From assembly GCA_002255985.1 (NCBI GenBank), contig NKIR01000001.1, positions 552,914 to 616,913 on the forward strand: a stretch of 64,000 nt of DNA. The letters run 5' to 3'. Each line of letters opens with the position of its first letter. Position 1 is the stretch's first letter. Below, one piece after another: positions 21,276 through 41,238 of this stretch. This stretch comes from Sphingomonadaceae bacterium PASS1. GTDB lineage: Bacteria; Pseudomonadota; Alphaproteobacteria; Sphingomonadales; Sphingomonadaceae. The notes under the pieces were generated by a model that saw only the letters and a list, made by a program, of their open reading frames with translations, had not been told where the DNA came from and searched no databases. A program made the translations under genes and the position numbers.

Positions 21276-21554
21276 ATGCTCGTTATGTTTGCGGCATTAA
21301 GTGTAATTGCCTTTGTTTCGAAACTTCTGATGCTATTGCGCGAACGCGAACAACCCTGCGGTGGTATGGCGCACGCACTCCAATCAGCGCGTGACGCTGC
21401 GACGATTTTGGGTCGAGAGGTTGTTAAGTTATGGCGTAACCCAGGGTTATCTCTCGCCTTTGAATGCGCTCGACAGATCAGGCAGGAAGGATGCCAGATG
21501 CGGCATTTCCTGCGCGCAATGCACCAGCAGGGCACGGGCGTCAGTCTCGGTTAG
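21276..21554 (+). CDS. possible small membrane ORF overlapping the convergent hydrolase gene
   Basis: The frame starts with a good hydrophobic segment (MLVMFAALSVIAFVSKLLML) followed by a polar stretch, but its last 108 bases run antiparallel through the 3' end of the DAPG-hydrolase-like gene. The upstream AAAGG could serve as binding site. Only residues 1-57 lie in free sequence. It may be a real gene that lost its proper end, or chance. Confidence 0.22.
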   Translation: MLVMFAALSVIAFVSKLLMLLREREQPCGGMAHALQSARDAATILGREVVKLWRNPGLSLAFECARQIRQEGCQMRHFLRAMHQQGTGVSLG

Positions 21555-22277
21555 GCGCAAAACGCGCTTCGCGGCGGCGGCGGCCATACTGCCGATAAGG
21601 TTGCGTCCACCGACATGGCGTCCCCCCATCCAGAAACGCGACCGCATCTCACTTCCGCCGGGAACCGCGCGGACATGGTGCGCCAGATAGCCGACATCGA
21701 TCGGGGCGTCACCAAGTCCGATCCGCGCGCAGATGATAGTGGCCTGTTGGTCGTCATCCAAGCTCTTGTCGGTAAAGCCCAGCGTTGCGGGCGGCACGAA
21801 ACGGATCGCGCCACGGATCAGGCCGCTGCCGATATATTCGTCAACAATTGACGTCTGCCCAATATAAAGTGCGCGCCCGCTGGCCCCTGCGGGGGGCGTT
21901 TCGCGCCAGCCGACATGGACATGTGCCTGCGGGTGCCACAATTTATATTTGGCGGCCGCATCGCCATGCCAGCCGAACCACCAATCCACCATCGCCGGTG
22001 TGACACCGGGCATGGCAGTGCGCACGCTGACCCGCATGCCGCCGTCTTGCGTCAGGACCCAGCCGTCTTCCAACACAGCCTCTGCGCCAAACAGGTTGCT
22101 ATTCGCCTGGTCAATGCCGGGAATCAAAACATCGGGTACGCCGCCACGATCAAGCGCCGCGCATACATGCGGTGCCAACGGGGCAAGTTCTGGGTTGAAA
22201 AATCGGGCGTAGGGCTGTGCATTGTCTGCCTCGCGATAACCCAGATAGCGACCGGCAATTGGCTTACTGTTTTTCAT
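21447..22277 (-). CDS. DAPG-hydrolase (PhlG)-like carbon-carbon hydrolase
   Basis: The 276-residue protein resembles 2,4-diacetylphloroglucinol hydrolase, a zinc enzyme that cleaves an acyl group from a ring by retro-Claisen hydrolysis. Family marks are WWFGWHGDAAAKYKLWHPQA (about 99-118) and the C-terminal HCAQEMPHLASFLPDL. Candidate zinc ligands are H115, E147 (VDEYIG), H253 and E257 (HxxxE). It is the last gene of a TetR / FAD oxidase / hydrolase operon with ATGA overlaps. Logic suggests the oxidase makes a beta-diketone-like product that this enzyme splits; the actual substrate is unknown. Confidence 0.8.
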   Translation of the reverse strand: MKNSKPIAGRYLGYREADNAQPYARFFNPELAPLAPHVCAALDRGGVPDVLIPGIDQANSNLFGAEAVLEDGWVLTQDGGMRVSVRTAMPGVTPAMVDWWFGWHGDAAAKYKLWHPQAHVHVGWRETPPAGASGRALYIGQTSIVDEYIGSGLIRGAIRFVPPATLGFTDKSLDDDQQATIICARIGLGDAPIDVGYLAHHVRAVPGGSEMRSRFWMGGRHVGGRNLIGSMAAAAAKRVLRLTETDARALLVHCAQEMPHLASFLPDLSSAFKGER

Positions 22278-23617
22278 GATACACGCCCCATATAGGTATT
22301 GAATCGGCCATCGGGATCAAATTTTGCGCGCAGTGCGTCCATACGTTCCAGATTGGCTGTGGCCATAAACGGCATCGGCCTGCGCCCCAGATTTTCATCG
22401 GCGAGCTGAATGCCGACACTCTGCGGTTGCAACGCGCGCATATGGTCGGTTGCCCAGCTTTCATCGGCGGGCGTCGCCGCCGTGCCGCGCAGCCCACCAT
22501 ACAGCGCGAGATAGGTTCGTGCTTCGAGGGAAAAAGCCATGTCGGGTCGGGACGGCGGGGCGTTCCAGTTGAGCCATAAGGCATGGCTCGGCGCAGCCGG
22601 CTGACTGTCTGCAATCTTGCGTAGCGCAGGCAGCAGCGGATCAATCGGATCATTCATCCACATGCTATCGGCGGTCCAACGTGTATTGGGCAGGAACAGC
22701 GTCTTTTCGCCGGTATTCATCATCATATTGAGCGACATCGGCATCAGCGGCAGGTTCAGACTGGCCTTGGACCGCAATGGGCTATCTTTGATGAAGGCAA
22801 CTGCGTCCTTTGCCTCACGCCAGCTGTCGGTCAGGACGGGCGCCAACACTTCAATGCCGTGGGAGAAGATACCGGTCGCCTTGCGGTTGAAAACCAGTTG
22901 AAACTCGACAGAAGGCGACACATCTGGCCCCACTTTGTCTGCCCACGCCATCACTTCTTCCAAATGCCGCATGCGAAAAACTTGCAGCTTCAACCCGACA
23001 AATTTGGGGCGGAGGTGCAGCTTCAGATGGAAGCGCACCACGACGCCGAAAAAGCCCGGCCCAGCGCCCCGCGCGGCCCAGAGCAATTCGGGATTTTCCT
23101 GTTCGCTGGCATGCACCAAGGTGCCATCTGCGAGAACAACATCAATGCCGATGACGCTCTGACAGGCAAGCCCCAACGCGCGGCTGTTCCAACCAAAGCC
23201 ACCCTGCAGCAGGAATCCGCCCATGCCGACCGTATAGGCATGTGCGACGGGAAAGAAGAGTTTATGCTTAACCAGCGCCGCATTGAGTTCCCCTGCAAGG
23301 CAGCCTGGGCCAATAATTGCAGTGCCAACGTCGCTGTAAATCGCGATGCTGTTCAACCGTGACAGATCAAGCAGAATCCCGCTGTCGCGAATGTGGTTTT
23401 GCGCCCAGCTATGCCCGCCCGAACAGATACCGATTGTCAGGCCTTCTTCCCGCGCGCGCTTCACCGCCGCGATAACCTCTTCCACGTCATTGGCCTGTAC
23501 AATCCGATCGGGACGGCGCCCCGGGTCTTGCGCATTGAAGCTGGTGCCGAGCAACGCGGCTTCGAAATCGTGCGAGCCCCGCTCCATCACGATGCCTTGG
23601 CGTGTCGTACGCTTCAT
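22274..23617 (-). CDS. FAD-linked oxidase of the PCMH/BBE type
   Basis: Flavin oxidase of about 447 residues. I chose the ATG at 23617, which overlaps the TetR stop by ATGA. The FAD-binding PCMH domain fills about 30-200, with RPDRIVQANDVEEVIAAV and SGGHS, where H69 is the usual covalent FAD attachment point. VGMGGFLLQGGFGWNSR near 130 lacks the Cys that gives a second covalent link in BBE proteins, so flavin is probably tethered once. The substrate domain follows, and the berberine-bridge C-terminus is FDPDGRFNTYMG. It is coupled to the DAPG-hydrolase-like gene. Confidence 0.87.
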   Translation of the reverse strand: MKRTTRQGIVMERGSHDFEAALLGTSFNAQDPGRRPDRIVQANDVEEVIAAVKRAREEGLTIGICSGGHSWAQNHIRDSGILLDLSRLNSIAIYSDVGTAIIGPGCLAGELNAALVKHKLFFPVAHAYTVGMGGFLLQGGFGWNSRALGLACQSVIGIDVVLADGTLVHASEQENPELLWAARGAGPGFFGVVVRFHLKLHLRPKFVGLKLQVFRMRHLEEVMAWADKVGPDVSPSVEFQLVFNRKATGIFSHGIEVLAPVLTDSWREAKDAVAFIKDSPLRSKASLNLPLMPMSLNMMMNTGEKTLFLPNTRWTADSMWMNDPIDPLLPALRKIADSQPAAPSHALWLNWNAPPSRPDMAFSLEARTYLALYGGLRGTAATPADESWATDHMRALQPQSVGIQLADENLGRRPMPFMATANLERMDALRAKFDPDGRFNTYMGRVS

Positions 23618-24306
23618 CGTGTGTTTCCAGTTTGTGATTGCGGGGATGTCGGCAGCGCCAACCAACGCATCGGCAATTGGGGTGACGGCGGAAAATCAAA
23701 AGCCGCATGTGCTAACCGCTCCGCTTCTGCGGCATCCACACCCAAATATGTCATAAGCTGGGCGGTTGCGGGATCAATCTTGTCGAAGCCTAAGACCCCC
23801 CGATGCAGATCGAGTGCCAGACCCGTAATGGCCCCCGCAACAATCGAGGTTGCAAGGTCGACGTCAGCCACCGTGAAGAGACCATTCGCAATGCCCTCTT
23901 CAATGTCCATCTTCAATAGCAACCGTAATTCGGTAGCAAGCCGGTCAGACGGCAAACCAATGTCGAACATCAGCCGGCCAAAGTCTGGCTGCTCGGCCAC
24001 AATGCGCAACGTCTGACGCGTGATCCGTGCAAAGCGCGCTGCAGCGTCTTCATCGCCTTCTGTGGACATTGCCATCGCCGCAGCATGCGTTGCCCCCAGC
24101 AGCTCGCCCAAATCACCAAGCAGCGCAGCCACATCCGGATAATAATTGTAGAAACTCGCATGCACCATGCCGGCATGGGTCGTAATCTGCCGCAGGCCGA
24201 GCGCTGCGGTGCCTTCGTGCATCAACAGCGATTGCGCCGACACCAACAACTGGTCGCGGGTGCGTTCACGCTTGGTGCCCGATAGGCTATCGACTTTGCT
24301 TTTCAT
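23614..24306 (-). CDS. TetR-family transcriptional regulator (first of two)
   Basis: Residues about 15-62 form the TetR DNA-binding domain (RDQLLVSAQSLLMHEGTAAL, then LRQITTHAGMVHASFYNYYPD). The remaining 160 residues form a variable ligand-binding domain of the TetR_C kind. It is the first gene of the operon running left into the oxidase and hydrolase. A 32-base palindrome lies five bases before its start codon, so it probably represses both its own operon and the divergent GST/arylsulfatase operon. The C-terminus is proline-rich and ends at the overlap with the oxidase start. Confidence 0.88.
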   Translation of the reverse strand: MKSKVDSLSGTKRERTRDQLLVSAQSLLMHEGTAALGLRQITTHAGMVHASFYNYYPDVAALLGDLGELLGATHAAAMAMSTEGDEDAAARFARITRQTLRIVAEQPDFGRLMFDIGLPSDRLATELRLLLKMDIEEGIANGLFTVADVDLATSIVAGAITGLALDLHRGVLGFDKIDPATAQLMTYLGVDAAEAERLAHAAFDFPPSPQLPMRWLALPTSPQSQTGNTR

Positions 24307-24310
24307 ATAT

Positions 24311-24342
24311 TTGACATATCATAAAATATGACATTATGTCAA
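24311..24342. promoter_or_regulatory. palindromic operator candidate in front of the first TetR gene
   Basis: The stretch starts TTGACATA (24311-24318) and ends with its exact complement TATGTCAA (24335-24342). Nested inside is a second palindrome, TCATAAAATATGA (24319-24331). It lies between the divergent TetR and GST-like genes, the classical place for an autoregulatory TetR site. TTGACA may also serve as a -35 element. Confidence 0.6.
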
Positions 24343-24507
24343 TTTATGCAATTGACGCAGCCAGACTGCGCATCAAAACATCGATGTAGGCCGCCGAGGG
24401 AACACATACCTGCCCTCATCAACAGGCTCCGCCGATATATTGGCATTGATAATGTCAATAGGGCGCTTTACAGACGACTACCCGCCATGACGGAAGGAAC
24501 GACTGCC

Positions 24508-25503
24508 ATGTACATGATCAACGGCGCGCTCGGATCGCCCTATTCGATGAAGATGCGCGCACTTATGCGCTATCGGCGCATCCCGCATCTTTGGGTGCAC
24601 GGCGCAGATTCGCGCGATGCATTGAGTAAGGTCAAGGCCCCTGTCATCCCCGTGATGGAATATCCCGATGGCACATTTCACAATGATTCGACGCCGTTGA
24701 TCTATGATCTGGAGGCGCGGCACACCGAACGTTCGGTCATCCCACCCGATCCGGCGCACGCCTTTATCGCGCATCTGATTGAAGATTTCGCCGATGAGTG
24801 GGTGACAAAGGCGATGTTCGGTTATCGCTGGCTGGAGGAAGTCGACCAGATCCAGATGAGCCGCTGGCTCGCGTTTGACGCGATGAAGGGCGGCGGGCTG
24901 GCGACCAGTCAGGGCTATGCCGAACAGTTCCGCGCGCGCCAGGTCGGCCGCATGGCGATTGTCGGCTGCGCGGCTGAAAACTTCCCGTTAATCGAGGCGT
25001 CAACCGGCGCGATTCTGGGTGCGCTCGAGGCGCACGTAGTGGATCAACACTGCCTGTTCGGTACAAGGCCCAGCATGGCGGAGTTCGGGATGTACGGCCA
25101 ATTGTCACAGCTTGGCGTTGACCCCACGGCGCAGGCGATGATGCGCAAAGATTTCCCTTACAGCTTCCGCTGGTTGCTCCATATTGATGATATGTCGGGA
25201 ATAACGGGCGAATGGGATAAGGCGGATGCACCCTTTGCGCCCATTATCACCGCTTGGTTGCAACAGGTGGGCGAAATCTACATGCCCTTCCTGCTCGCCA
25301 ACGCCGCCGCGATTGAGGCAGGTGAAGATAGCTTCGACATCACCGCGATGGGCCTGCCCTACACACAGGGTGTTTTCAAATATCAGGTGAAGTGCCTCGC
25401 CGATTTGCGGGCGCGCTATGCCGCGTTGGATGCAAATGCGCGGGCGCGCATTGATCCGCTGCTCGCACAAACGGGCTGTCTTGAGGCTTTGCGGAACCAA
25501 TGA
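24508..25503 (+). CDS. GST-like protein (thioredoxin-fold N-terminus, long C-terminal domain)
   Basis: I select ATG 24508 because GGAAGGA lies nine bases before it; ATG 24487 lacks a binding site. Residues 1-80 match a glutathione S-transferase N-terminal domain (SPYSMKMRALMRYRRIPH, then PVIPVMEYPDG with the cis-Pro and HNDSTPLI for glutathione contact). The C-terminal helical part (about 90-330) is longer than in usual GSTs of 210-230 residues. The product could be a glutathione-dependent isomerase, dehalogenase or ring-processing enzyme. It overlaps the arylsulfatase start by ATGA, so it belongs to the catabolic operon. Confidence 0.78.
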   Translation: MYMINGALGSPYSMKMRALMRYRRIPHLWVHGADSRDALSKVKAPVIPVMEYPDGTFHNDSTPLIYDLEARHTERSVIPPDPAHAFIAHLIEDFADEWVTKAMFGYRWLEEVDQIQMSRWLAFDAMKGGGLATSQGYAEQFRARQVGRMAIVGCAAENFPLIEASTGAILGALEAHVVDQHCLFGTRPSMAEFGMYGQLSQLGVDPTAQAMMRKDFPYSFRWLLHIDDMSGITGEWDKADAPFAPIITAWLQQVGEIYMPFLLANAAAIEAGEDSFDITAMGLPYTQGVFKYQVKCLADLRARYAALDANARARIDPLLAQTGCLEALRNQ

Positions 25504-27290
25504 AGCTAAAAGGATCGGCAGCCCTATTGACCGCGCTGGCGTTGCTCAGCCCGGCCACACTTGACGCACAGTCTGCGCCCGCAAAAGCCCCCAATATCGT
25601 CATCCTTTTGGCGGATGATTGGGGCTTTAGCGATGTCGGGGCCTTCGGCGGGGAGATTGCGACGCCCAATATCGACGCGCTTGCCGCCAAGGGCGTGCGT
25701 TTTTCGAACTTCCATGTGGCAGGGTCCTGCTCGCCAACGCGCGCGATGCTGCAAACCGGCGTGATCAACCACCGCGCGGGTCTGGGCAATATGCCGGAGA
25801 CAATTCCGCCGGAACATCTCGGCAAACCGGGTTATGAGTCACATCTGAACAACCGCGTCGTGACGATTGCGGACCAGCTGCGCGCGGGTGGTTACCGCAC
25901 CTATTTGACCGGAAAATGGCATCTGGGCCATACGCCCGACACCTTGCCGACGGCACGCGGCTATGACCACGCGCTCGCGCTGGCGCAATCGGGCGCGGAC
26001 AATTTTGAAGATAAGCCCAATCTGCTGATTTATGACAAGACCAAGTGGAGTGACGATGGAAAGCCGGCCAAGCTGCCAAAACGCTTTTACTCCTCAACGC
26101 TGATTGTCGACAGGATGATCGGCTATATTGATCGCGGCCGGGCCAGCGGAAAACCATTTCTGGCGTCGGTCAATTTCATCGCCAACCATATTCCGGTGCA
26201 GGCACGCGATGCGGACATTGCGGCTTATGCCGGGCGTTATAATGCGGGCTGGACCGCACTGCGCAAAGAGCGCCGCGCCGCAGCGATTGCCAAAGGCGTG
26301 ATGCCCGCGAATGTTGCGATGGTGACCATGGGCACCAGTGGTGACTGGTCGAAATTATCGGCAGAGCAAAAGCGGCAACGTGCGGGCGCAATGGCTGCCT
26401 ATGCTGCCATGGGCACGGCGATGGACCGCGAAATCGGCCGGTTAGTGACGCATCTGAAGGCCATCGGTGAATATGAAAACACCATTTTCGTGTTTCTGTC
26501 GGACAATGGCGCGGAAGCGACTGACCCAATGAACATGGGCGCATTTACGCGGTGGAACGCCAATCTTCTCTATGATCAAAGCATCGCCCAACAGGGGCGC
26601 CCGGGTTCGCTGACCGCGCAAGGTGCGGGATTTGCCAGTGCATCGGCATCGCCGTTGCGTGGATACAAATTTACTGCGAACGAAGGTGGCTTGCGTGTCC
26701 CCATGATCATAGCCTGGCCGGGCAACCGGGCGATTAAGGGTGGTACCATTACATCCGGTTTTGCGCATGTCACCGATATGCCGCCGACTTTACTAAAGCT
26801 CGCAGGCGTCGCGCCGCAGCAAGGCAGTTTTTCTGGACGCCGCGTCGAGTCCATGATTGGGATGGACCTGACACCAATGCTCACAGGGGCGGCATCGTCC
26901 GTCCATTCGGCGGACAAGCCATTGGGCTATGAATTGTCCGGCAACGCGGTGTTGTTCAAAGGCGATTACAAGCTCGTCAAAAACCTGCCGCCTTATGGCG
27001 ATGGCCGCTGGCGGCTTTACAACATTACCACCGATCCCGGTGAGACCAACGATCTGTCCGGTTCCGACCCGCAACGCTTTGCGGATATGCAATCCGATTA
27101 CGCCGCCTTTGCCAAGGCGAACAACGTGCTACCCATGCCGGACGGTTACACAGCGCCCAAACAGATTTTCGCAAATGCGCTCCGCACATTGCTGATACCG
27201 CGGCTTATCGCGTTATGGCCGGTGGGCGGGCTATTGTTGATAGCAACAGCGGCCGTGATCTGGTGGCGCAGACGGCGCGCTTCACGGTGA
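25500..27290 (+). CDS. arylsulfatase, signal peptide plus C-terminal membrane anchor
   Basis: Type I sulfatase that hydrolyses sulfate esters with a formylglycine residue. A signal peptide (about 1-23) precedes PNIVILLADDWGFSD, which supplies the metal-binding Asp pair. C77-S-P-T-R81 is the C-x-P-x-R motif where Cys becomes formylglycine. YLTGKWHLGH near 135 and FLSDNGAEATD near 330 add the expected active-site residues. At the C-terminus, a hydrophobic helix (LIALWPVGGLLLIATAAVIW) followed by RRRRASR would tether the enzyme to the inner membrane, facing the periplasm. It is coupled at both ends to its neighbours. The lipoprotein FGE at 30.4 kb is the probable maturase. Confidence 0.92.
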   Translation: MKLKGSAALLTALALLSPATLDAQSAPAKAPNIVILLADDWGFSDVGAFGGEIATPNIDALAAKGVRFSNFHVAGSCSPTRAMLQTGVINHRAGLGNMPETIPPEHLGKPGYESHLNNRVVTIADQLRAGGYRTYLTGKWHLGHTPDTLPTARGYDHALALAQSGADNFEDKPNLLIYDKTKWSDDGKPAKLPKRFYSSTLIVDRMIGYIDRGRASGKPFLASVNFIANHIPVQARDADIAAYAGRYNAGWTALRKERRAAAIAKGVMPANVAMVTMGTSGDWSKLSAEQKRQRAGAMAAYAAMGTAMDREIGRLVTHLKAIGEYENTIFVFLSDNGAEATDPMNMGAFTRWNANLLYDQSIAQQGRPGSLTAQGAGFASASASPLRGYKFTANEGGLRVPMIIAWPGNRAIKGGTITSGFAHVTDMPPTLLKLAGVAPQQGSFSGRRVESMIGMDLTPMLTGAASSVHSADKPLGYELSGNAVLFKGDYKLVKNLPPYGDGRWRLYNITTDPGETNDLSGSDPQRFADMQSDYAAFAKANNVLPMPDGYTAPKQIFANALRTLLIPRLIALWPVGGLLLIATAAVIWWRRRRASR

Positions 27291-28528
27291 AGGGCTATTG
27301 GCCCAGTCCCTGGCCCTGCGAGGACGGTGGCCCTCGCCGGTTACAGTCAACGCCCGACCCCCTGACTATGGCAGAACCTAATAGTCTGCGGCTCACAGCG
27401 ACCTCGCGGCGCCGGTTGATGACGACGATGACCGTGCTAGGCGATCCGGGCGAGATTTTTCTGCTGACCCATCAGGCGCTGCGATCACAGATCAGACTGC
27501 CTACCACCGCGCAGGTCGAGCGTATCGATCCGTTGACGCTGCGCCCTATCGCACGCAGCCCGCGCCTCGACGGCGGCCCGATGTGGCCGGGCGGGATGGC
27601 CATTCACCGCAATGGCGACCTTTACACCGTCTACGGGCGCTACATCCATCGCCTAGCCCGCGCAGATCTAACTGTCCGCGCAGCAGCCATATTGCCGGTC
27701 GATCAGCCCTATAACAGTTTCGTGATCCTCGATTCGGGGTTAATCGTCACGAAGAATCTCTCTGATCGCTCCACAGCGCAACTTTGCGTGATTGATCCGG
27801 AAGATTTAACCATGGTCTGCCCGACGCTTGATTGCGCGGAGCCATCGGTGGCGCGGCTCAGCGCCGTTGGCAATACCGTCTACGTCGTGGGTGTGCGTAC
27901 ATTAACCCGCTATCATTGGGATGGCACTGCCCTGCGGCGTGACGATAGCTGGGCCTGCCCCTACATCGGCAACAGCCAACGTAGCCATGGCTGGGATGCC
28001 GTGATCGGGGACCGTCACCTCTGGCTGATGGACAACGGCCAGCATCGTTATCGCACAAGCATGGTCGGGCGCGGCGTTGCGCAGGCACCCAATCGGCTCA
28101 TTCGCGTTGCACTTGCAGACGCTGAAGACTGGCAGTGTATCGACGTCAGCGGTTTGCCGGGCGGCAGCATCACCAACCCGCCGCTCTGGGACGAAGCGAG
28201 GCAGATCGTCATCGCATATGACAGCGCCAATCGCGTCATCTGCGGCTTCCGCTTCGAGGAAGAGAAGCGCGCGCTCGTGCCATTGTGGAGGAAAGATGGT
28301 TTGGGCTGCGCCAGCCATATGCTGCATTTTCCCGAAAGCGGTCTAATTTGCACCAATGATTATCAGCGCCGCGAAGCGATCGTCCTGCTCGATATCACCA
28401 GCGGAGCGACAGTTGCGCGGGTCGAAACAGGTGGGTTCATGCAAGGCGTGGTGTTTCCGTCACCCGGCTGGAATCAAGATTTCTATTGGTGCTCGATGGA
28501 CCAAGTGACGCGGATCGCATTTACGTGA
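27287..28528 (+). CDS. beta-propeller-like protein of unknown function
   Basis: I place the start at the GTG overlapping the arylsulfatase stop (GTGA), giving 413 residues. There is no obvious signal peptide. The protein shows repeated strand patterns with GGMAIHRNGDLYTVYGRYIHRL, YNSFVILDSGLIVTKNL, VGNTVYVVGVRTLTRYHWDG and WDAVIGDRHLWLMDNGQH, like six-bladed propellers of SMP-30/lactonase or quinoprotein types. Two to three His/Trp/Asp clusters could hold a ligand. I do not recognise the family. Coupling to the arylsulfatase suggests a step on the desulfated product or a sensor role. A hairpin (GCGGATC/GATCCGC, 28510-28533) overlaps the stop. Confidence 0.7.
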   Translation: MKGYWPSPWPCEDGGPRRLQSTPDPLTMAEPNSLRLTATSRRRLMTTMTVLGDPGEIFLLTHQALRSQIRLPTTAQVERIDPLTLRPIARSPRLDGGPMWPGGMAIHRNGDLYTVYGRYIHRLARADLTVRAAAILPVDQPYNSFVILDSGLIVTKNLSDRSTAQLCVIDPEDLTMVCPTLDCAEPSVARLSAVGNTVYVVGVRTLTRYHWDGTALRRDDSWACPYIGNSQRSHGWDAVIGDRHLWLMDNGQHRYRTSMVGRGVAQAPNRLIRVALADAEDWQCIDVSGLPGGSITNPPLWDEARQIVIAYDSANRVICGFRFEEEKRALVPLWRKDGLGCASHMLHFPESGLICTNDYQRREAIVLLDITSGATVARVETGGFMQGVVFPSPGWNQDFYWCSMDQVTRIAFT

Positions 28529-28575
28529 TCCGCGCCGCTGAAGAATAGCCCGGCATTTAACCGCCGGACCTTTGC

Positions 28576-29472: not shown

Positions 29473-29474
29473 GG

Positions 29475-30365
29475 CTATCGCACTTTCAGAATGCAGTCGA
29501 CGAAGCCTTGCGGATCATTTTCCTGAATGAAATGACCGCCCTTCAACGTGCAATGCGGCTGACCCGCGGTACCGGGAACGCGGCCGATGAAACGGCTCTC
29601 GCCACCGCGCGTGACGGGATCGCCATCGCTGAAGCAGCACAGGAATGGCTTGTCCCATTTCTCAAACACTTCCCACGCACTTTTCTGATCGGGGATCGCG
29701 ACATTGTTTTCGAACGGAACGAAGCTCGGGAATATCCGCGCGCCTGCCTTGTAGCTGCTATCGGGAAACGGTGCGTCATAAGCGGCGATCTCAGCCGCGC
29801 TGAGCGCCCGCTTTGCCCCGGCGTTGACGATCCTACCGATGGGGAAGAACGGGCTCCATTTGGAAAAGGCGCGCCAGATAGCAAAAGCGCGCGGTGGCGG
29901 GCCGCCTTCGGGCAAGCCGCCATTGGACAGAACGACACTGGCAAAACGATCTGGCATTTCTGCGACCAGGCGCAGACCGATCAGCGAACCCCAATCCTGA
30001 CAGACGAGCGTCATATTGCTCAGACCAACCGCCTCAATCCACTGGCGCATCCAGCCAACATGGCGTGCATAGCTATAGTCGGTTTTTTTCGTGGGCTTGT
30101 CGGATTTACCGAAACCAATCAGGTCAGGCGCGACAACGCGAAAGCCGGCCGCGACGACAGGGCCGATCATGTGACGGTACAAATAGCTCCAGCTTGGCTC
30201 ACCATGCATCATCAGCACCACCGGCGCATCGCGGGGGCCTTCATCCACATAATGCACACGCAAGGGCGTGCCGTCCGAGGGATCGGCAATCTCCACATAA
30301 TTTGGCGCAAAAGGAAAATCGTCGATTGCGGCAAAGGCGCTGTCGGGTGTGCGTAGGACTTTCAT
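29475..30365 (-). CDS. haloalkane-dehalogenase-like alpha/beta hydrolase (copy 1 of tandem pair)
   Basis: A 296-residue paralog of the neighbouring downstream gene. It has MHGEPSWSYLYRH, DLIGFGKSDKPTKKTDYSY and the nucleophile motif CQDWGS with D124 and W125, plus D249 (FSDGDPV) and H278 (KGGHFIQE). The second Gly after the nucleophile Trp is Ser here, and the cap region differs (GGPPPRAFAIWRAFSKWSP), so substrate ranges may differ between copies. It is the first gene of the pair; a TTGGCAC-N5-GTGTCAT palindrome lies 26 bases before its ATG. Confidence 0.82.
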   Translation of the reverse strand: MKVLRTPDSAFAAIDDFPFAPNYVEIADPSDGTPLRVHYVDEGPRDAPVVLMMHGEPSWSYLYRHMIGPVVAAGFRVVAPDLIGFGKSDKPTKKTDYSYARHVGWMRQWIEAVGLSNMTLVCQDWGSLIGLRLVAEMPDRFASVVLSNGGLPEGGPPPRAFAIWRAFSKWSPFFPIGRIVNAGAKRALSAAEIAAYDAPFPDSSYKAGARIFPSFVPFENNVAIPDQKSAWEVFEKWDKPFLCCFSDGDPVTRGGESRFIGRVPGTAGQPHCTLKGGHFIQENDPQGFVDCILKVR

Positions 30366-30390
30366 GCATTAATCCCTAGAAATGGTTATA

Positions 30391-30409
30391 TTGGCACTTA
30401 AGGTGTCAT
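30391..30409. promoter_or_regulatory. operator candidate before the dehalogenase pair, matching the TetR2 site
   Basis: TTGGCAC (30391-30397), five bases, then GTGTCAT (30403-30409) form an imperfect inverted repeat. The same left arm and the same 7-5-7 geometry occur at 32022-32040 beside the second TetR gene. It lies just upstream of the dehalogenase start (30365). Confidence 0.5.
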
Positions 30410-30424
30410 ATTATCAATGGCGGG

Positions 30425-31339
30425 TCAAGACGCTGTCCCAGCCTTCTTCGAATCGACCAGCCGAAACCCGATATGGTCGGTGCCTAATCCGCGTTCCTGA
30501 AACTGGCGCGCCGCGGGGCGATAGCGCGCGCAATAATTGGCCGCGCACAGATAGGATCCGCCTTTTATGATGTTAACCGGTTCGCTGGCATCGGCGCGCG
30601 ATCCGCTGCTGCGCGTCCATTCCCAGACATTACCGATCATATCATACAGACCGTATCCGTTCGGTTTGAAACAGCCCACCGGCGCGCGACCGATATAGCC
30701 GTCGGTGTTGAGGTTTTTGACCGGGAAGACGCCTTGATAATAGTTCGCTTGCGGCTTGCCCTTCGCGTCAACCGGTTCCGGCAAGGCTACCGCGCCGCCG
30801 CGCGCAGCATATTCCCATTGCGCCTCACTCGGCAATTCCTTGCCCGCCCACCGCGCATAGGCCTCTGCATCCTGATAGGCGATTTGGACAACGGGTTCGT
30901 TGTCGCGACCAATGATGGTCTCTTTAGGACCGGAAGGATGTCGCCATTGCGCCCCCACGACCCAGCGCCACCAACGCGGGTCGTCGTCCGACGGGATATT
31001 GAACACGGCAGAACCCGAGACCAACATTTCGGGCGGCGCACCGCGCAGCTTGGGCGGATCGCGCTCCGATATGGTCTTGTAACCGGTCGCTTTTACAAAG
31101 GCCGCGAATTGGGCGTTGGTCACTTCATGTGCGTCGATCCAAAACCCCTTAACGGCCACAGTCTGCGGCGGACCTTCCTCTGCGTAATGCGGATCGTCAC
31201 CCATCACAAAGCTACCGCCCGGGACCCAGACCATATCATTGTCTGGCAAGCCGGTGCACTTTGTTTCCGGCGGCACATCTGCATCGCCGCAGCCAGACAA
31301 CAGCAGCGCCAGACCGAGAGCGAGACCAAAGCGTTGCAT
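30425..31339 (-). CDS. formylglycine-generating enzyme (SUMF1/FGE family), lipoprotein
   Basis: FGE converts the Cys of a sulfatase C-x-P-x-R motif to formylglycine, using copper and oxygen. The 304-residue protein starts at ATG 31339 with a lipoprotein signal whose lipobox LLSGC puts the lipidated Cys at 17. The SUMF1 core runs from about MVWVPGGSFVMGDDP to HIGFRLVD. Both catalytic cysteines are present in SYLCAANYCARYR (C265 and C270, spacing as in characterised FGEs). Many bacterial SUMF1 proteins lack these, so real maturase activity is likely. Lipidation places it in the periplasm with the two exported arylsulfatases. It is coupled to the upstream TetR gene. Confidence 0.88.
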   Translation of the reverse strand: MQRFGLALGLALLLSGCGDADVPPETKCTGLPDNDMVWVPGGSFVMGDDPHYAEEGPPQTVAVKGFWIDAHEVTNAQFAAFVKATGYKTISERDPPKLRGAPPEMLVSGSAVFNIPSDDDPRWWRWVVGAQWRHPSGPKETIIGRDNEPVVQIAYQDAEAYARWAGKELPSEAQWEYAARGGAVALPEPVDAKGKPQANYYQGVFPVKNLNTDGYIGRAPVGCFKPNGYGLYDMIGNVWEWTRSSGSRADASEPVNIIKGGSYLCAANYCARYRPAARQFQERGLGTDHIGFRLVDSKKAGTAS

Positions 31340-31959
31340 CAATCCTCCGGCATGCCGGACATGGCATCGCTGAGCAAACGCCGCACAACAGCCTTGGCGT
31401 CCTCAAAAGGCAGTTCCTGATCATGCCTTAACAATCGCCATGTCTGGAAACTCAATATGACATTGAGACTGCGGGTACCCGCCACATCGGCCTTCACCGC
31501 CGCCGGCAAATGCGCCTCGGTGCTGTCGGATTCGAGCCGCAGCATCCGGCGATAGTCCTGCATCAAATAGGGCGATTGAAAGCGTTTGAGATTGGCCGAA
31601 ATCCGATAAGGCAGAATGGTTTCGAAAACCATTGCCCGCCGGTCAGCAATGTCGAACAGCTTTTCCTTCCAGCTAGCGCCGCTGGGCGGTTCGAGGATGA
31701 TGGGCATCACCTGCGCCGCAATCACCTCCCCCATTTCGCGGTACAGCTCGTCCATATCGTCAAAATGTCGGAAAACCGAGCGGAGCCCAACACCCGCGAC
31801 CTCCGCAACACGCGCGGCGCTGGGTGCAACATCGCCCTTACCGACCAGATCGACCATCGCCGCGACTATCTTCGATCGGCTCGACCGGCTGCGTTCCCGC
31901 CGGCCATCGGCCAGCGGCGCTTCCGTGCGTGATGTCATTTTGTGCGATGCGTTGGTCAT
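31339..31959 (-). CDS. TetR-family transcriptional regulator (second of two)
   Basis: The start ATG at 31959 gives 206 residues. The DNA-binding domain spans about 20-70 (RSKIVAAMVDLVGKGDVAPS, then ARVAEVAGVGLRSVFRHFDDMD), where the recognition helix lies in VGLRSVFRHF. The rest is a diverged ligand domain. Its stop codon overlaps the FGE start, so it regulates its own maturase gene's expression at least. An operator candidate lies 62 bases before its start, between it and the divergent operon at 32.1 kb. Confidence 0.87.
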   Translation of the reverse strand: MTNASHKMTSRTEAPLADGRRERSRSSRSKIVAAMVDLVGKGDVAPSAARVAEVAGVGLRSVFRHFDDMDELYREMGEVIAAQVMPIILEPPSGASWKEKLFDIADRRAMVFETILPYRISANLKRFQSPYLMQDYRRMLRLESDSTEAHLPAAVKADVAGTRSLNVILSFQTWRLLRHDQELPFEDAKAVVRRLLSDAMSGMPED

Positions 31960-32021
31960 GCGGCCATGTTTTGCGGCAAACGGCCGCTGGCGCAAGCGAC
32001 AAAAGCGATTGCAAATATATT

Positions 32022-32040
32022 TTGGCACAATTAATGCCAA
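32022..32040. promoter_or_regulatory. operator candidate of the second TetR regulator
   Basis: TTGGCAC (32022-32028), AATTA, then ATGCCAA (32034-32040) form a near-perfect inverted repeat, flanked by A/T-rich sequence that extends the symmetry. It sits between divergent TetR and Cys-rich protein genes. A second site with the same arms and spacing lies at 30391-30409. Confidence 0.6.
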
Positions 32041-32100
32041 TAATATTCCGCCGCTTCGTTGCGGGACGCAAAAGACAATTGGGTGAAGGAGAAGACAAGG

Positions 32101-32352
32101 ATGTCAAAAGCAGTCTTCATTTTGGCCGCGTCGGCCCTGCTACTGTCAACTGCACCGCTGTCGGCGCAAGACAATGTGCGCCAAGCGTGCATGCCCGATA
32201 TCCGTAAATACTGCTCCGCAGAGTTGGCGACTTTTAGCCGCGACAATGTCCGCGCCTGCCTTATCAAAAATATCAAAAAGACGTCACCCGCCTGCCAAGA
32301 GGCAGCAAAAGCGCGGCGCGATGCCGAGCGCGCCAAGAAGAAGGATAGTTAG
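32101..32352 (+). CDS. small secreted Cys-rich-repeat protein
   Basis: The 83-residue protein starts at ATG 32101 behind AAGGAGAAGACAAGG. A signal peptide (about 1-22, ending SAQ) is followed by one unit resembling the Cys-rich Golgi/FGFR-type repeat: C-x3-DI-x3-C, then CLIKNIKKTSPAC. A highly charged tail (AKARRDAERAKKKDS) ends it. Four Cys residues would make two disulfides in the periplasm. Its role in the sulfatase locus is unknown. It is the first gene of the rightward operon. Confidence 0.7.
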   Translation: MSKAVFILAASALLLSTAPLSAQDNVRQACMPDIRKYCSAELATFSRDNVRACLIKNIKKTSPACQEAAKARRDAERAKKKDS

Positions 32353-32356
32353 AGCC

Positions 32357-32989
32357 ATGACAGCATGGATAATCTGGGGAACCGCGTTGCTCGCCTATGG
32401 ACTATTTCGGCTCTGGTATGACAATTGGTCGGGCCCACTGAAACCCGCCGAAATTGATGCGTTTCTTGCGCAAATGGCGGGGCGTTTCGAGGGCACTGGA
32501 AATAGCCAGCAGGTTATGCGCGCGTTCCTTGAAGCCGATGACGGCCGCGAGTTTGTCATGCTCAATCTGGTGAAAGCGCAGATGGAGCAGGTGGAAGACC
32601 CCAAAACCGGGCAAATGGTTCAAGGCTTTGATCTGCTTAAGCGCTATTCGCAACGCTTCATGCCGGCGCTGTTCCGCAATGGCGGCCATCCCGGCATGGT
32701 CGGACGCAAGGTTGGCGGATATATTGATGCTTGGAACACTGAGGCGGATCCCGACTGGACGATCTTTGGCCTCATGCGTTACCGCAGCCGCCGCGACATG
32801 ATAAAGCTGGTTAGGGACCCCGCTTTTATGGAGGGCCATCCCGATAAGCTGCGTGGTACGCTTGCGACATTTTCATTCCCGACACAGCGGGTCGTGTCGT
32901 TTTACGTCAGCCCGCGCGTCACCGTTGCGCTCATCTTGGCGCTTGCGGCGGCGCTTGCGCATCTGGCTGTCCTAACGGTCGCCGGATGA
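32357..32989 (+). CDS. membrane-anchored protein with a putative dimeric alpha/beta-barrel-like domain
   Basis: I place the start at ATG 32357, four bases after the previous stop. The 210-residue protein has a helix at the N-terminus (about 2-20) and another at the C-terminus (about 188-207), enclosing a soluble part with FVMLNLVKAQMEQ, IDAWNTEADPDWTIFGLMRYRSRRDMIKLVRDPAFMEGHP. That latter pattern resembles DUF1330/EthD-like dimeric alpha/beta-barrel proteins. It might bind or process a hydrophobic intermediate at the membrane. It overlaps the next gene by ATGA. Confidence 0.65.
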   Translation: MTAWIIWGTALLAYGLFRLWYDNWSGPLKPAEIDAFLAQMAGRFEGTGNSQQVMRAFLEADDGREFVMLNLVKAQMEQVEDPKTGQMVQGFDLLKRYSQRFMPALFRNGGHPGMVGRKVGGYIDAWNTEADPDWTIFGLMRYRSRRDMIKLVRDPAFMEGHPDKLRGTLATFSFPTQRVVSFYVSPRVTVALILALAAALAHLAVLTVAG

Positions 32990-33444
32990 ACGCTTTCCTT
33001 CCGCCCAGTACAAATATCCACTATCGTGGATCACGTTATTCTGCGTGGTTTTTGGCATTTTATGGCATTGGCTGGATCGTACCGGGGATGATCCACAGCT
33101 TCCTGCCTGATGGCGGTGCGGGCGTCATTGCAGGGCTTGACCTCAGCCACAATCCAACGATGATATTCGGCATGTTCGCCTGGGCGGGCGCGACCCAGAT
33201 TGCGCACGGCATCGTCACCCTCTTGGTCGCACTGCGCTATCGCGCGCTCGTGCCGCTGTTCCTTTTGGTGTCTCTGATCGAGCGCCTGTTGCTGAGCTGG
33301 TCGGGCTGGATAAAGCATGTGCCCGTCAGCGGCCATCACCCGCCTGAACATTATGCCAGCCTGATCTCGCTACCGATAACTCTGCTGTTTCTGTGGCTAT
33401 CCGTGCGGCGATCACATCAAACCCAACCGGAGAGCCCGGAATGA
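32986..33444 (+). CDS. small polytopic membrane protein
   Basis: The 152-residue protein has about four hydrophobic helices (WFLAFYGIGWIVPGMIH, MIFGMFAWAGATQIAHGIV, ALVPLFLLVSLIERLLL, ISLPITLLFLWLSV). I do not recognise the family. It overlaps its two neighbours by ATGA, so it belongs to the operon that ends with the second arylsulfatase. A transport-accessory or anchoring role is possible. Confidence 0.7.
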   Translation: MNAFLPPSTNIHYRGSRYSAWFLAFYGIGWIVPGMIHSFLPDGGAGVIAGLDLSHNPTMIFGMFAWAGATQIAHGIVTLLVALRYRALVPLFLLVSLIERLLLSWSGWIKHVPVSGHHPPEHYASLISLPITLLFLWLSVRRSHQTQPESPE

Positions 33445-35069
33445 AAAAATGGACATGGATCGGGGCATTGGCGCTGGTGATCGGCGCGGGCTATTTGGGT
33501 TTTCAGCAATATAAAATCTATATTCCCGGCATCATCAGCGAATGGCGCGAACCGATTGGCGAAAACCGTCCCGTTGCATGGGCGAAGGGTCCTGCGGTCG
33601 CTCCCGCTGGCCAACGTCCGCCCAACGTCATCCTGATTGTGGCAGACGATTTGGGCGTGAATGACATTTCGCTGTACGGTGGCGGGGTTGCTGGTGGCGC
33701 GGTACCGACCCCCAATATCGATTCCATTGCCAAACAGGGCGTCAGCTTTGCCAATGGCTATGCCGCAAACGCCACCTGTTCGCCTTCGCGCGCAGCGTTG
33801 ATGACTGGGCGTTATCCGACACGGTTCGGTTTTGAATTTACGTCTATTCCAGCGGCATTTGCCTCAAATCTGGCGCATAATGGAGGAAATTCACCCTATC
33901 CGACTATCTATCATGAAGAACTGAATCGGGACCTGCCGGCCTATGCCGATATGGGTGTGCCCAATGCAGAAATCATGTTGCCCGAGATACTGAAGGCCAA
34001 GGGGTATCACAATATCCACATCGGCAAATGGCATCTGGGTGAAGCCAAACCATTGTGGCCAACGTCGCAGGGGTTTGACGAAAGCCTTGGCATGCGGGCG
34101 GGCGGCGATTTGTTTATGGCCGAAGATGACCCGCAGGTCGTCAATGCAAAGCTGCCATGGGACCCGATCGACCGCTTCTTATGGGCGAACCTGCCCTATG
34201 CGGTCTATTGGGGAGACAGTGCGCGCTTTCGGCCCAAAGGCCACCTGACCGACTATTTCACCGACAATGCACTCGCCGCAATTGACGCGAACAAGAACCG
34301 GCCCTTCTTCATGTATCTCGCCTATAATGCGCCGCACACCCCGCTGCAGGCGCTGAAATCGGACTATGACGCGCTGCCGCAGATTAAGGACCATACCCAG
34401 CGCGTCTATGGCGCGATGATGCGTCAGCTTGACCGGCGGATTGGCGACGTGCTGCAAAAGCTGAAGGACACCGGGCTCGACAACAATACGCTTGTTATCT
34501 TTACCAGCGACAATGGCGGGGCTTGGTATACTGGTATCAAGGATCACAACACGCCCTATCGCGGCTATAAAGGTACCTTCTTCGAAGGCGGCATTCATGT
34601 GCCGATGATGATGCGCTGGCCGGGTAAGATCGCGCCGGGGACGGTTCGCAGTGATGTCGCGCAGCACCTTGATATGTTTGCAACCATTGCAGCGGCAACG
34701 GGTGCGCGCGTACCCAGCGATCGCAAAATGGACAGCTTCAATCTGTTTGGCACCGGGCCGAAACGCGAAGTGACCTTCTGGCGTTCGGGGCATTACCGCG
34801 TTGTGCGCGCAGGCGACTGGAAATTGCAAGTTTCCGAACGTCCCAACAAAGTGTGGCTATTCAACCTCGCAACCGATCCCACCGAGCGTGTCAATTTGGC
34901 GACCAAGGATCCAGCGCGCGTGGCGGAACTGCGCAAGTTGATTGAAGCGCAAAATGCCGGTTTGCCGAAGCCCCTTTGGCCCGGCCTACTTGAAGGCGCG
35001 ATCCGGATCGATGTTCCGTTGAATGCGGCATGGAAAAAAGATCAGGAATATGTCTATTGGGCCAACTGA
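33441..35069 (+). CDS. arylsulfatase with N-terminal signal anchor
   Basis: Second type I sulfatase (542 residues), starting at ATG 33441. One N-terminal hydrophobic helix (WIGALALVIGAGYLGF) exports it and may anchor it. PNVILIVADDLGVND (61-75) gives the metal-binding Asp residues; C113-S-P-S-R117 is the formylglycine site. GKWHLGEAKP and FTSDNGGAWYTG are further active-site motifs, and PWKLQVSERP-like C-terminal strands close the fold. Unlike the first sulfatase it has no C-terminal anchor. The lipoprotein FGE, 2 kb away and under the shared TetR site, is its probable maturase. Confidence 0.92.
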   Translation: MKKWTWIGALALVIGAGYLGFQQYKIYIPGIISEWREPIGENRPVAWAKGPAVAPAGQRPPNVILIVADDLGVNDISLYGGGVAGGAVPTPNIDSIAKQGVSFANGYAANATCSPSRAALMTGRYPTRFGFEFTSIPAAFASNLAHNGGNSPYPTIYHEELNRDLPAYADMGVPNAEIMLPEILKAKGYHNIHIGKWHLGEAKPLWPTSQGFDESLGMRAGGDLFMAEDDPQVVNAKLPWDPIDRFLWANLPYAVYWGDSARFRPKGHLTDYFTDNALAAIDANKNRPFFMYLAYNAPHTPLQALKSDYDALPQIKDHTQRVYGAMMRQLDRRIGDVLQKLKDTGLDNNTLVIFTSDNGGAWYTGIKDHNTPYRGYKGTFFEGGIHVPMMMRWPGKIAPGTVRSDVAQHLDMFATIAAATGARVPSDRKMDSFNLFGTGPKREVTFWRSGHYRVVRAGDWKLQVSERPNKVWLFNLATDPTERVNLATKDPARVAELRKLIEAQNAGLPKPLWPGLLEGAIRIDVPLNAAWKKDQEYVYWAN

Positions 35070-35186
35070 TTACGCGGTGGTGTTTACAGAAATTCAGCCT
35101 ATGCCGGCCGGTATCGCAAAAGTGTTTTGCAATTTTTTAATTTGTCTATCAGCCTATTTCTTGGACCAACCGCGGGAGAGAATTTT

Positions 35187-36122
35187 GTGACAGTTACGCA
35201 GCTCATCAACCAAAATTGGGTCGTGATATCTCTTGCTGCTTTTGGGCTGGGTATATTGTTTGAACTGGGTGCCATTCGCTTCCTCAAACGTGCGGGTAAC
35301 GTTCCGGCAAAAGACTCGTTGCTGTCCATATTTCTTGGGCTTGCAAGTGATCCTGTAAATGCCATCTTTGCCTTCATCACCACCGCCGCTTTATTTGCAA
35401 CGGCACCATTTGCCATTGGCGAAATACCCATCACTTGGGGGTCGTTCTTGCTGTGCTTCGTGCTCGATGATCTGCGATTTTACGTGCACCACCGCATATG
35501 CCACCGCGTCCGTTGGGGTTGGGCGATGCATGTGGTCCATCATTCATCCACCAATTTCAACATGCCCATTGCGCTCCGCCAAAGTTGGATGAAGCACTTT
35601 ACCGGAACGATGATGCTCAAAATTCCGCTGATTTTAATCGGCTTTGATCCGGTATTGGTTGTTTTTTGCGGGATCCTTAACGCAACTTACCAATTCTTCC
35701 TCCACACCGAAACGATCGACCGTTTGCCACGGTGGTTTGAATATATTTTCAATACGCCGAGCCACCACAGGGTGCACCATGGCCGCAATCCAGAATATCT
35801 GGATGCGAATTTCGCCGGTACGCTGATCATCTGGGATCGGATGTTTGGCACATTCGTCGAAGAAGACCGCGCCGTGCCGGTTGACTATGGCTTGGTCAAA
35901 AATCTTGAGACGTTTAATCCATTCACAATCTTAACGCATGAATATGTCGGTATAGTACAAGACGCATCGCAACGCGGACTGAGCCTGTGGCAGCGCTTTT
36001 GTTACATTTTTGCGCCGCCAGGCTGGAGCCATGATGGGTCACGGTTGACGTCCGAAGACATTAAACGGGAGGCTGGTTTGCTCCCTGAAACCACCACGCC
36101 AATAACGCTTACGAGAACATGA
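35187..36122 (+). CDS. fatty-acid hydroxylase/sterol desaturase family membrane protein
   Basis: I place the start at GTG 35187 behind GGGAGAG; TTG 35127 would add 20 residues. The 311-residue diiron membrane oxygenase has the family His clusters HHRICHR (H-x3-H type), HVVHHSS and HHRVHHGRN, plus an extra His in QFFLHTE. Four membrane segments surround them. Members hydroxylate or desaturate lipids, sterols or alkylglycerols. It follows the second arylsulfatase by 117 bases and may be co-regulated. Its substrate could be the lipid part of the compound the locus degrades, or an unrelated membrane lipid. Confidence 0.87.
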   Translation: MTVTQLINQNWVVISLAAFGLGILFELGAIRFLKRAGNVPAKDSLLSIFLGLASDPVNAIFAFITTAALFATAPFAIGEIPITWGSFLLCFVLDDLRFYVHHRICHRVRWGWAMHVVHHSSTNFNMPIALRQSWMKHFTGTMMLKIPLILIGFDPVLVVFCGILNATYQFFLHTETIDRLPRWFEYIFNTPSHHRVHHGRNPEYLDANFAGTLIIWDRMFGTFVEEDRAVPVDYGLVKNLETFNPFTILTHEYVGIVQDASQRGLSLWQRFCYIFAPPGWSHDGSRLTSEDIKREAGLLPETTTPITLTRT

Positions 36123-36697
36123 TGCCCGCCCATTATGCTTTATCCGACGCCGCCATTGTGTTGGTCACGATTTTTGCTGGCAATGCGCTTTGGCGAAATG
36201 GCCGACATTTACCGGCATTTGCAATGGCCTGCTTTGGCGTTGCAGCCTTCATCGGCGTGGTGCGTTTTGGGGCTGGTTTGCAGGATGCACTCGCCGCTTT
36301 GCATGCCGGTGCATCTCAATTGCTGGGCCTTGCGGGCGCCGTTGCGATATTGTCCAGTTATCTGTTCCGCCCCGCGGATAGACACATAATATCGATAATC
36401 GCCCTCATCCTGTGCGCCGCGACCGCGATCTTTTTGTTAGCGCAACCTTTACTCGGCCCTGTTTTCCTATTGGCGTTAGTGATCGTATTTCTTGCCTCAA
36501 TCGTGCGACCCGGCGCGTCGGGGCGGTCTTGGCTTGTGCCAGTCGGTTGCGCCGTGATGCTTGCAAATACGTTGTTCATTCGGCGTGCGGCGTGGCTTGA
36601 TGAGGCTGTGGCTTGGCACATATATCATGTGCTCATCGCCTTAGCTCTGGCTGCACTCGCCAAGGGTTTGATGTCGACGGAACGGGGCGCGCACTGA
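36119..36697 (+). CDS. polytopic membrane protein coupled to the hydroxylase
   Basis: A 192-residue, very hydrophobic protein with about six helices and a short C-terminal tail. Its ATG overlaps the hydroxylase stop. No catalytic motif is evident and I do not recognise the family, although hydroxylase genes are often paired with such small proteins. It closes the rightward gene set of the sulfatase locus. Confidence 0.7.
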   Translation: MMPAHYALSDAAIVLVTIFAGNALWRNGRHLPAFAMACFGVAAFIGVVRFGAGLQDALAALHAGASQLLGLAGAVAILSSYLFRPADRHIISIIALILCAATAIFLLAQPLLGPVFLLALVIVFLASIVRPGASGRSWLVPVGCAVMLANTLFIRRAAWLDEAVAWHIYHVLIALALAALAKGLMSTERGAH

Positions 36698-41121: not shown

Positions 41122-41238
41122 CGCTTCATTCCTTTTAGGGCTGCCTAAGGTAACCGGTGTCATTCGCACTTTGCTGTGAACACTTCTGCCTGTCAATGTA
41201 ACAACGTATGAAGATTTTGTTCTAAACCTTAGGCGGAT

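Follow-up and report, generated by a model that had tools for sequence, protein, structure and literature searches.

A conserved sulfatase–dehalogenase gene cluster with a lipoprotein formylglycine-generating enzyme and a shared predicted operator in Sphingomonadaceae

A stretch of 64,000 nucleotides from Sphingomonadaceae bacterium PASS1 (the window; positions 552914–616913 of an assembly of 3.07 Mb that is 95.9% complete) carries a cluster of genes at 24.4–35.1 kb. The cluster encodes a glutathione S-transferase (GST)-like protein, two sulfatases (SulfA and SulfB), two haloalkane dehalogenases (HLD1 and HLD2), a lipoprotein formylglycine-generating enzyme (FGE), a TetR-like regulator (TetR2), and small membrane proteins. 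Judged by comparison with related genomes, it is a conserved unit, and it is probably co-regulated. Its gene content and conservation, the common palindrome at its promoters, and the intact active-site motifs of its products are read directly from the sequence. We propose, with a probability of about 0.55, that the cluster is a TetR2-controlled regulon that would use or detoxify the sulfate ester of a lipophilic compound, often one with an sp3-bound halogen.

An earlier reading of this DNA, made from the sequence alone, had treated the cluster and its neighbours as a single catabolic locus of 15 kb. Pfam and NCBIfam scans of the window recover all the genes that it named, near the positions that it gave. 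The Pfam scan took in 20 open reading frames (ORFs) at 16.5–41.2 kb and left out three at 17696–19943. The tight coupling described within operons is also borne out. ORFs overlap by 4 bases between the genes for a PhlG-like protein and an FAD oxidase, GST and SulfA, FGE and TetR2, the membrane proteins h32 and h33, and a protein of the FA_hydroxylase family (FAH) and the membrane protein mem36, and there are 2 bases between the HLD1 and HLD2 ORFs. Of the joint locus, the unit of sulfatases, FGE, dehalogenases, and GST stands, since it is kept in relatives with a common predicted operator; the whole 15 kb as one system does not. The ORF at 32101–32352, h32, h33, the ORF ending at 28528, and the operators had been passed over.

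Conservation of the cluster

A profile search for the FGE over 249 genomes of the family gave matches in 103 at 1e-30. A gap in the scores between 465 and 327 bits separates the FGE orthologues (at least 465 bits), found in 21 of the 249 genomes, PASS1 included. Neighbourhoods of up to 20 kb around the FGE were compared in the 20 other orthologue genomes and in 20 lower-scoring loci picked out of 30 matches at 327–277 bits. Gene presence in the fetched loci was scored by tblastn. SulfB lies near the FGE in 17 of the 20 other orthologue loci (not in L122, L127, or L129), TetR2 in 16, and GST, at 64% identity or more, in 10. HLD-like genes are present in 12, the copy in L116 at only 27%. Within the genus, three of five genomes have the FGE, and all three have the cluster. 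In the two FGE-less genomes of the genus (G068 and G233), none of the three PF00884 matches contains a [CS][AST]P[STA]R motif, and the only HLD is distant, at about 262 bits versus 537–567.

The co-location of FGE and HLD genes exceeds chance. Of the 37 HLD copies that a profile search turned up across the 21 FGE genomes, 16 lie no more than 10 kb from the FGE. An HLD lies within this distance in 12 of the 21 genomes, from eight genera, where 0.25 genomes would be expected; in a simulation of independent placement (1e6 runs), at most 5 genomes showed such a neighbour. The families named in the earlier reading recur together in part: FGE and HLD are linked above chance and the sulfatases and GST recur, while the co-location of PhlG and FAD oxidase looks incidental.

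No HLD was found by tblastn in any of the 20 lower-scoring FGE loci, seven of which (L132, L133, L135, L136, L139, L143, and L144) hold SulfA, GST, SulfB, and FGE. The sulfatase–GST–FGE core is therefore wider than the HLD addition. In other families of the class, SulfB, GST, and FGE occur together in three of five fetched loci (L186–L188, not L185 or L189), and no HLD was found in these three. In a Rhodobiaceae metagenome-assembled genome (MAG; L069), FGE, HLD, GST, and SulfB all fit into a stretch of about 10 kb.

Two variants of the cluster were also observed. The HLD-free version belongs to another FGE clade and has the operator before GST or DUF1330 in five of seven cases. Extended clusters of 16–20 kb each (L117, L118, L119, and L121) include a TonB-dependent receptor (also present in L120), a metallo-beta-lactamase-fold hydrolase, a DsbA-like isomerase, and an enone-reductase-like oxidoreductase, with DUF2855 in three of the four. 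Several promoters of these extended clusters bear the cluster operator.

A shared predicted operator

The gap between TetR2 and h32 contains an inverted repeat, TTGRCA-N7-TGYCAA, which is kept in the window and seven relatives. Its G-form, TTGGCA-N7-TGYCAA, is found with at most one mismatch at three places in the window. Operator 1 (TTGGCATTGATAATGTCAA, 24440–24458) lies upstream of GST–SulfA, operator 2 (TTGGCACTTAAGGTGTCAT, one mismatch, 30391–30409) lies 26 bases upstream of HLD2–HLD1, and operator 3 (TTGGCACAATTAATGCCAA, 32022–32040) lies between TetR2 and the h32–h33–SulfB side. This corresponds to 5 strand matches versus 1.13 expected, a number not reached in any of 100 shuffles. One more window site, at 10443, appears with the looser TTGRCA form. 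The 3.07 Mb genome contains the strict form, TTGRCAYNNNNNRTGYCAA, at only two places, both in the cluster. Only this strict form is specific, since the G-form gives 115 strand matches genome-wide (control, 27) when one mismatch is allowed.

The operator was surveyed in 28 of the 33 compared loci, and the other five (L069, L116, L122, L127, and L129) were scanned later. The consensus was derived from 7 of the 28, which leaves 21. At a spacer of 7, TTGRCA-N7-TGYCAA has 53 sites in 27 of the 28 cluster loci, compared with 0–9 sites at each of spacers 3–6 and 8–12. Of the 21 loci outside the derivation set, 20 contain the operator, with 38 sites between them. L069 carries two, one each in front of HLD and SulfB, and L186, L187, and L188 have 2, 2, and 1; in total, the operator is present in 24 of 26 cluster loci outside the derivation. 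None was found in the five loci that have an FGE and no sulfatase match (L122, L127, L129, L185, and L189).

Of the 53 sites, 41 are no more than 60 bases inside or 150 upstream of the start of a core-family gene; for 359 permuted palindromes, the figure is 118 of 1239 sites. With no more than one mismatch, a site precedes HLD in the window, L111, L112, L001, L002, L115, L004, L006, L117, and L069.

TetR2 (31339–32040, minus strand; 19.7 bits to PF00440, below the cut-off of 24) is, from its position, the inferred binder of the palindrome. Its true start is probably the ATG at 31959, because the opening codons of the longest ORF overlap operator 3. The GST-like protein (24487–25503, plus strand; PF13417, GST_N_3, 1.9e-9) recurs in cluster loci, and its class has one weak PDB match, 4jed at 0.00095. 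Its start is 24487 or 24508 rather than 24328, and the longer ORF from 24328 would span operator 1. The single regulon that had been envisaged over 15 kb is not seen, as the three operators lie in the core cluster and none in the window lies at the PhlG module or FAH. The two TetR regulators reflect two units instead of one system.

Sulfatases and a lipoprotein FGE

SulfA (25500–27290, plus strand; PF00884 5.5e-56) and SulfB (33441–35069, plus strand; PF00884 4.7e-58) are type I Cys-type sulfatases (S1), each combining the PF00884 domain with a CxPxR motif (CSPTR and CSPSR, respectively). Among solved structures, SulfA matches 1hdh at 6.7e-112 and SulfB matches 6prm at 1.2e-72. SulfB is nearest to carrageenan sulfatases, at a distance too great to fix its substrate, and appears to have an N-terminal membrane anchor. 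Signal peptides and membrane anchors of SulfA, SulfB, and h32 were judged by eye. Four sulfatases in the PASS1 genome exceed the PF00884 cut-off, all with the Cys motif and exported-looking by eye; a fifth, sub-threshold match was left out.

The FGE (30425–31342, minus strand) is a lipoprotein with both catalytic Cys, as the sequence-only reading had described it: it matches PF03781 at 6.1e-74 and has a lipobox and a C-x4-C pair. It is the only PF03781 match found in the PASS1 assembly, and no anSME match was found in three of three genomes of the genus, PASS1 included. A lipobox, predicted by regular expression, is present in the FGEs of 20/20 orthologue loci, 13/20 lower-scoring loci, and 15/80 named loci (two orthologue loci are duplicates of named loci). 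Among the named loci, it occurs in 7/7 at 60% identity or more and in 8/73 below that. Across 118 FGEs, a Cys at position 224 accompanies a Cys in the N-terminal linker in 40 of 46 lipoproteins, 3 of 12 proteins whose hydrophobic N-terminus is of another kind, and 5 of 60 that lack both. This suggests that the Cys pair of lipoprotein FGEs forms a disulfide. The AlphaFold model of the FGE has a mean pLDDT of 50 and was not used.

These features suggest that sulfatases are matured by a lipoprotein FGE in the periplasm. PMC4505483 places prokaryotic FGE in the cytosol, and PMC3920027 describes Cys-type sulfatases as typically cytosolic. FGEs of other groups, cyanobacteria included (L007, L008, L011, L017, and L023), have hydrophobic N-termini and no lipobox, which suggests that FGE export is not confined to sphingomonads. 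L156 and L157 have a signal-less Cys-type sulfatase with a CAPAR motif, and a lipoprotein FGE is the only FGE found in those genomes.

Haloalkane dehalogenases

HLD1 (28576–29472, minus strand) and HLD2 (29475–30365, minus strand) belong to subfamily I of the haloalkane dehalogenases. They score 455.6 and 431.2 bits against the haloalkane dehalogenase model NF002043 (cut-off 265), which confirms the two dehalogenase-like hydrolases with Asp nucleophiles that had been noted earlier. In alignments, both keep the nucleophile Asp, the His, the acid Asp, and two Trp (D123, W124, W163, D249, and H278 in HLD1; D124, W125, W164, D249, and H278 in HLD2). The roles of nucleophile, acid, and halide-binding Trp are presumed to be those of DhlA and DppA. 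The retention of all these residues argues for halide binding.

Haloalkane dehalogenases act by nucleophilic substitution at an sp3 carbon. Aryl halides would therefore be poor substrates, and halogenated phenols fit poorly. An SN2 mechanism for these enzymes is given in PMC10503415. No ring-cleaving dioxygenase or phenol monooxygenase is present among the 20 scanned ORFs. Halogenated phenols, whose sulfates had been thought to fit as substrates, were rejected on these two grounds.

Neighbouring genes

Adjacent to the cluster are genes on the minus strand for the PhlG-like protein (21447–22277; DAPG_hydrolase, PF18089 3.7e-53), the FAD oxidase paired with it (22274–23665; FAD_binding_4, with EncM as the nearest solved structure), and a second regulator, TetR1 (23614–24306). 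TetR1–FAD oxidase–PhlG is a separate module, unrelated to the sulfatase cluster. PF18089 is sporadic in the family, occurring in 10 of 249 genomes, with the FAD oxidase adjoining in 8 of the 10 (PASS1 included). No sulfatase-cluster gene was found near the PhlG–FAD oxidase pair in five fetched relatives, in three of which TetR1 stands beside it. G106 and G228 both carry the sulfatase cluster and have the pair on other contigs. Nor does the module lie beside the same-genus clusters L111 and L112, where homologues of window 12321–13999 directly follow GST; the stretch with the PhlG module is therefore an indel.

Within the window, the module has no copy of the cluster operator; of the five relatives, one, L192, carries a lone TetR2-type site with one mismatch. 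TetR1 has a candidate palindrome of its own (ATGACATTATGTCAA, 24328–24342), with similar ones in L192 and L194. The PhlG-like protein reaches 105.4 bits against the PhlG equivalog NF047887, for which the cut-off is 600. The proposal that FAD oxidase and PhlG form a pathway step was rejected, as they stand apart in relatives and are not beside the same-genus clusters.

On the other side of the cluster are FAH (35187–36122, plus strand) and mem36 (36119–36697, plus strand), which is coupled to it. Among the compared loci, they follow SulfB only in L111 and L112, both from the same genus. They have no cluster operator in the window. FAH, the supposed diiron hydroxylase, lies outside the unit at 24.4–35.1 kb. 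Beyond it, genes for a mannitol-dehydrogenase-family protein, a glucuronate isomerase, and a GH43 protein stand in a row at 36729–41196, probably as an operon for uronate/xylan utilisation that neighbours the cluster.

The remaining genes of the cluster encode smaller or less familiar proteins, all on the plus strand. A protein of about 413 residues (27287–28528) has no Pfam or NCBIfam match and occurs only in the window, L002, and L114 among the compared loci. A small secreted Cys-rich protein (32101–32352) scores 21.5 bits to PF00839, just under the cut-off of 22. The membrane-tethered (by eye) protein h32 (32357–32989) has no direct Pfam match, and is DUF1330-like by its profile match to the DUF1330 family of related loci (hhalign 97.9%, E 5e-13). 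The small membrane protein h33 (32986–33444) recurs in cluster loci.

Proposed function and alternatives

In the proposed mechanism, formylglycine would be made in the periplasm, where the lipoprotein FGE would oxidise the motif Cys of SulfA and SulfB, both membrane-anchored; the two sulfatases would then take off the sulfate there. The desulfated compound would enter the cytoplasm, where HLD1 and HLD2 would swap halide for hydroxyl and the GST would deal with an electrophilic intermediate. Binding of the substrate or an intermediate to TetR2 would open the promoters.

A number of observations weigh against this proposal. Independent placement ignores relatedness, so that the FGE–HLD effect is overstated, with eight genera remaining. 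The HLD-free clusters of the lower-scoring loci make HLD an add-on, and the common substrate therefore need not be halogenated. Orthologue loci L122, L127, and L129 have no SulfA or SulfB nearby by tblastn, and G559, outside the family, has an FGE of 488 bits with no SulfA or SulfB match in 14 kb and an HLD-like match of only 28%. The window cluster has no gene for a transporter or a later oxidation step that would point to the compound. As for the operator, no site with at most one mismatch precedes HLD in L113, L114, L118–L121, or L126; L116 holds the cluster, yet has zero sites; and SulfB in the window has no operator directly before it, only the one before h32. One of the 359 control palindromes, GATCRT, gave 51 sites, 3 operator sites turned up in 13 FGE loci that lack the cluster, and four sites (L133, L135, L136, and L139) lie inside an unrelated coding family, f16.

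Some observations also weigh against the periplasmic step. Shared ancestry may explain part of the association between the Cys pair and lipoprotein FGEs. A CAPAR sulfatase with no signal is present in G137 and G192, and the lipoprotein FGE is the only one found there (E ≤ 1e-30), so that a cytosolic maturation route may exist. Bacteroidota have lipoproteins of the FGE fold, GldK/PorK, that do not act as maturases.

The strongest competitor, which has a real if clearly smaller chance of being correct, is that the core of two sulfatases, FGE, GST, TetR2, and DUF1330 handles non-halogenated alkyl, steroid, or phenolic sulfates, with the HLD-fold enzymes as general hydrolases or enzymes for an unrelated substrate. 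HLD-free clusters, seen in seven of the 20 lower-scoring loci and in the three cluster-bearing of five loci from other families (L186–L188), speak for it, as does the resemblance of SulfA to the arylsulfatase PAS, listed with alkyl sulfate substrates in PMC3920027. Set against it are the two halide-binding Trp that the HLDs retain, the linkage of HLD to FGE far above chance, and the operator, within one mismatch, before HLD in ten loci including the window and L069, if not in the seven named above. Sulfur scavenging, in which the sulfatases would supply sulfate in starvation and the other genes would be passengers, seems improbable. The sulfatases do look exported by eye, and the only FGE found in the genome sits here, but no sulfate or sulfonate transporter occurs among the 20 scanned ORFs, the regulator is TetR-like, and the strict operator is confined to the cluster.

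Least probable is the use of halogenated phenol sulfates through one 15 kb pathway that includes the FAD oxidase and PhlG as a C–C hydrolase. All these genes are adjacent in the PASS1 genome, and PhlG-fold enzymes, the relatives of the window protein, act on phloroglucinol-type rings. However, the TetR1–FAD oxidase–PhlG module behaves as a separate unit in its placement in other genomes and in its lack of a cluster operator in the window, while HLDs need an sp3 C–X bond and the scanned ORFs include no aromatic ring-cleavage gene. This single-pathway reading is largely contradicted.

Under the proposed sulfate ester regulon, halogenated alkyl sulfates are a better fit than halogenated phenols. 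One specific candidate, speculative and of low probability, is the degradation of algal chlorosulfolipids (polychlorinated alkyl sulfates), in which the two sulfatases, activated by the FGE in the periplasm, would desulfate the lipid and the two HLDs would hydrolyse its aliphatic C–Cl bonds. These lipids, some of which bear two sulfates, were first described from a freshwater chrysophyte and have also been detected in coastal waters (PMC13413282). The cluster relatives include a pond MAG (L006), which gives this idea weak support. A MAG that we take, from its name series, to be from a reservoir (L001) does the same. No bacterial degradation of chlorosulfolipids was found among the matches listed in the literature searched; to our knowledge, such a route, if true, would be the first in bacteria.

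Significance and comparison with known systems

The cluster offers a sharply defined regulon linking desulfation to dehalogenation that is open to testing, as well as a natural context for subfamily-I dehalogenases. The exported FGE is the most directly testable surprise. If true, it challenges the cytosolic view of bacterial FGE (PMC4505483), and periplasmic formylglycine formation would be a new maturation site in bacteria. Neither an exported FGE nor a Sphingomonas-related gene cluster of HLD and sulfatase was found among the matches listed in the literature searched, sources that were in part accessible and thinly covered subscription journals, so that both negatives are weak.

The individual enzymes have well-described relatives. 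For SulfA, the closest solved relative is PAS, the arylsulfatase of Pseudomonas aeruginosa (1hdh), to which it aligns over residues 28–540; SulfA differs in having, as judged by eye, a signal peptide and a membrane anchor at its C-terminus. The FGE shares its family and catalytic Cys pair with aerobic FGE/SUMF1 (human 1y1e and bacterial structures), and differs in having a lipoprotein signal and an extra Cys pair. GldK/PorK, outer-membrane lipoproteins of Bacteroidota (PMC12421860), are alike in being lipoproteins with the FGE fold. However, the match to them is a partial domain match of 101.6 bits (cut-off 350), and the window FGE, which retains both catalytic Cys, has far higher scores against true FGEs. 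DccA of Caulobacter vibrioides (5esr; named in Table 1 of PMC10619424) aligns with HLD1 at 393 bits and with HLD2 at 384, near full length and with catalytic residues in place. In contrast to DccA and other subfamily-I enzymes, the predicted dehalogenases here are two tandem copies under the operator of a sulfatase cluster. The PhlG-like protein shares the DAPG_hydrolase domain with PhlG and phloretin hydrolase (3hwp and 5xe5), but falls below the equivalog cut-off and lies in a separate module.

As a whole, the cluster is a new make-up from known enzyme families. The SLF alkyl sulfate module of Psychrobacter comprises an AraC/XylS-type regulator, an alkyl sulfatase, alcohol and aldehyde oxidation, and an acyl-CoA synthetase; as described in the accessible part of PMC10779009, it has no FGE, HLD, or GST, unlike the window cluster. 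The two are alike in that each would be a regulated cluster beginning with desulfation.

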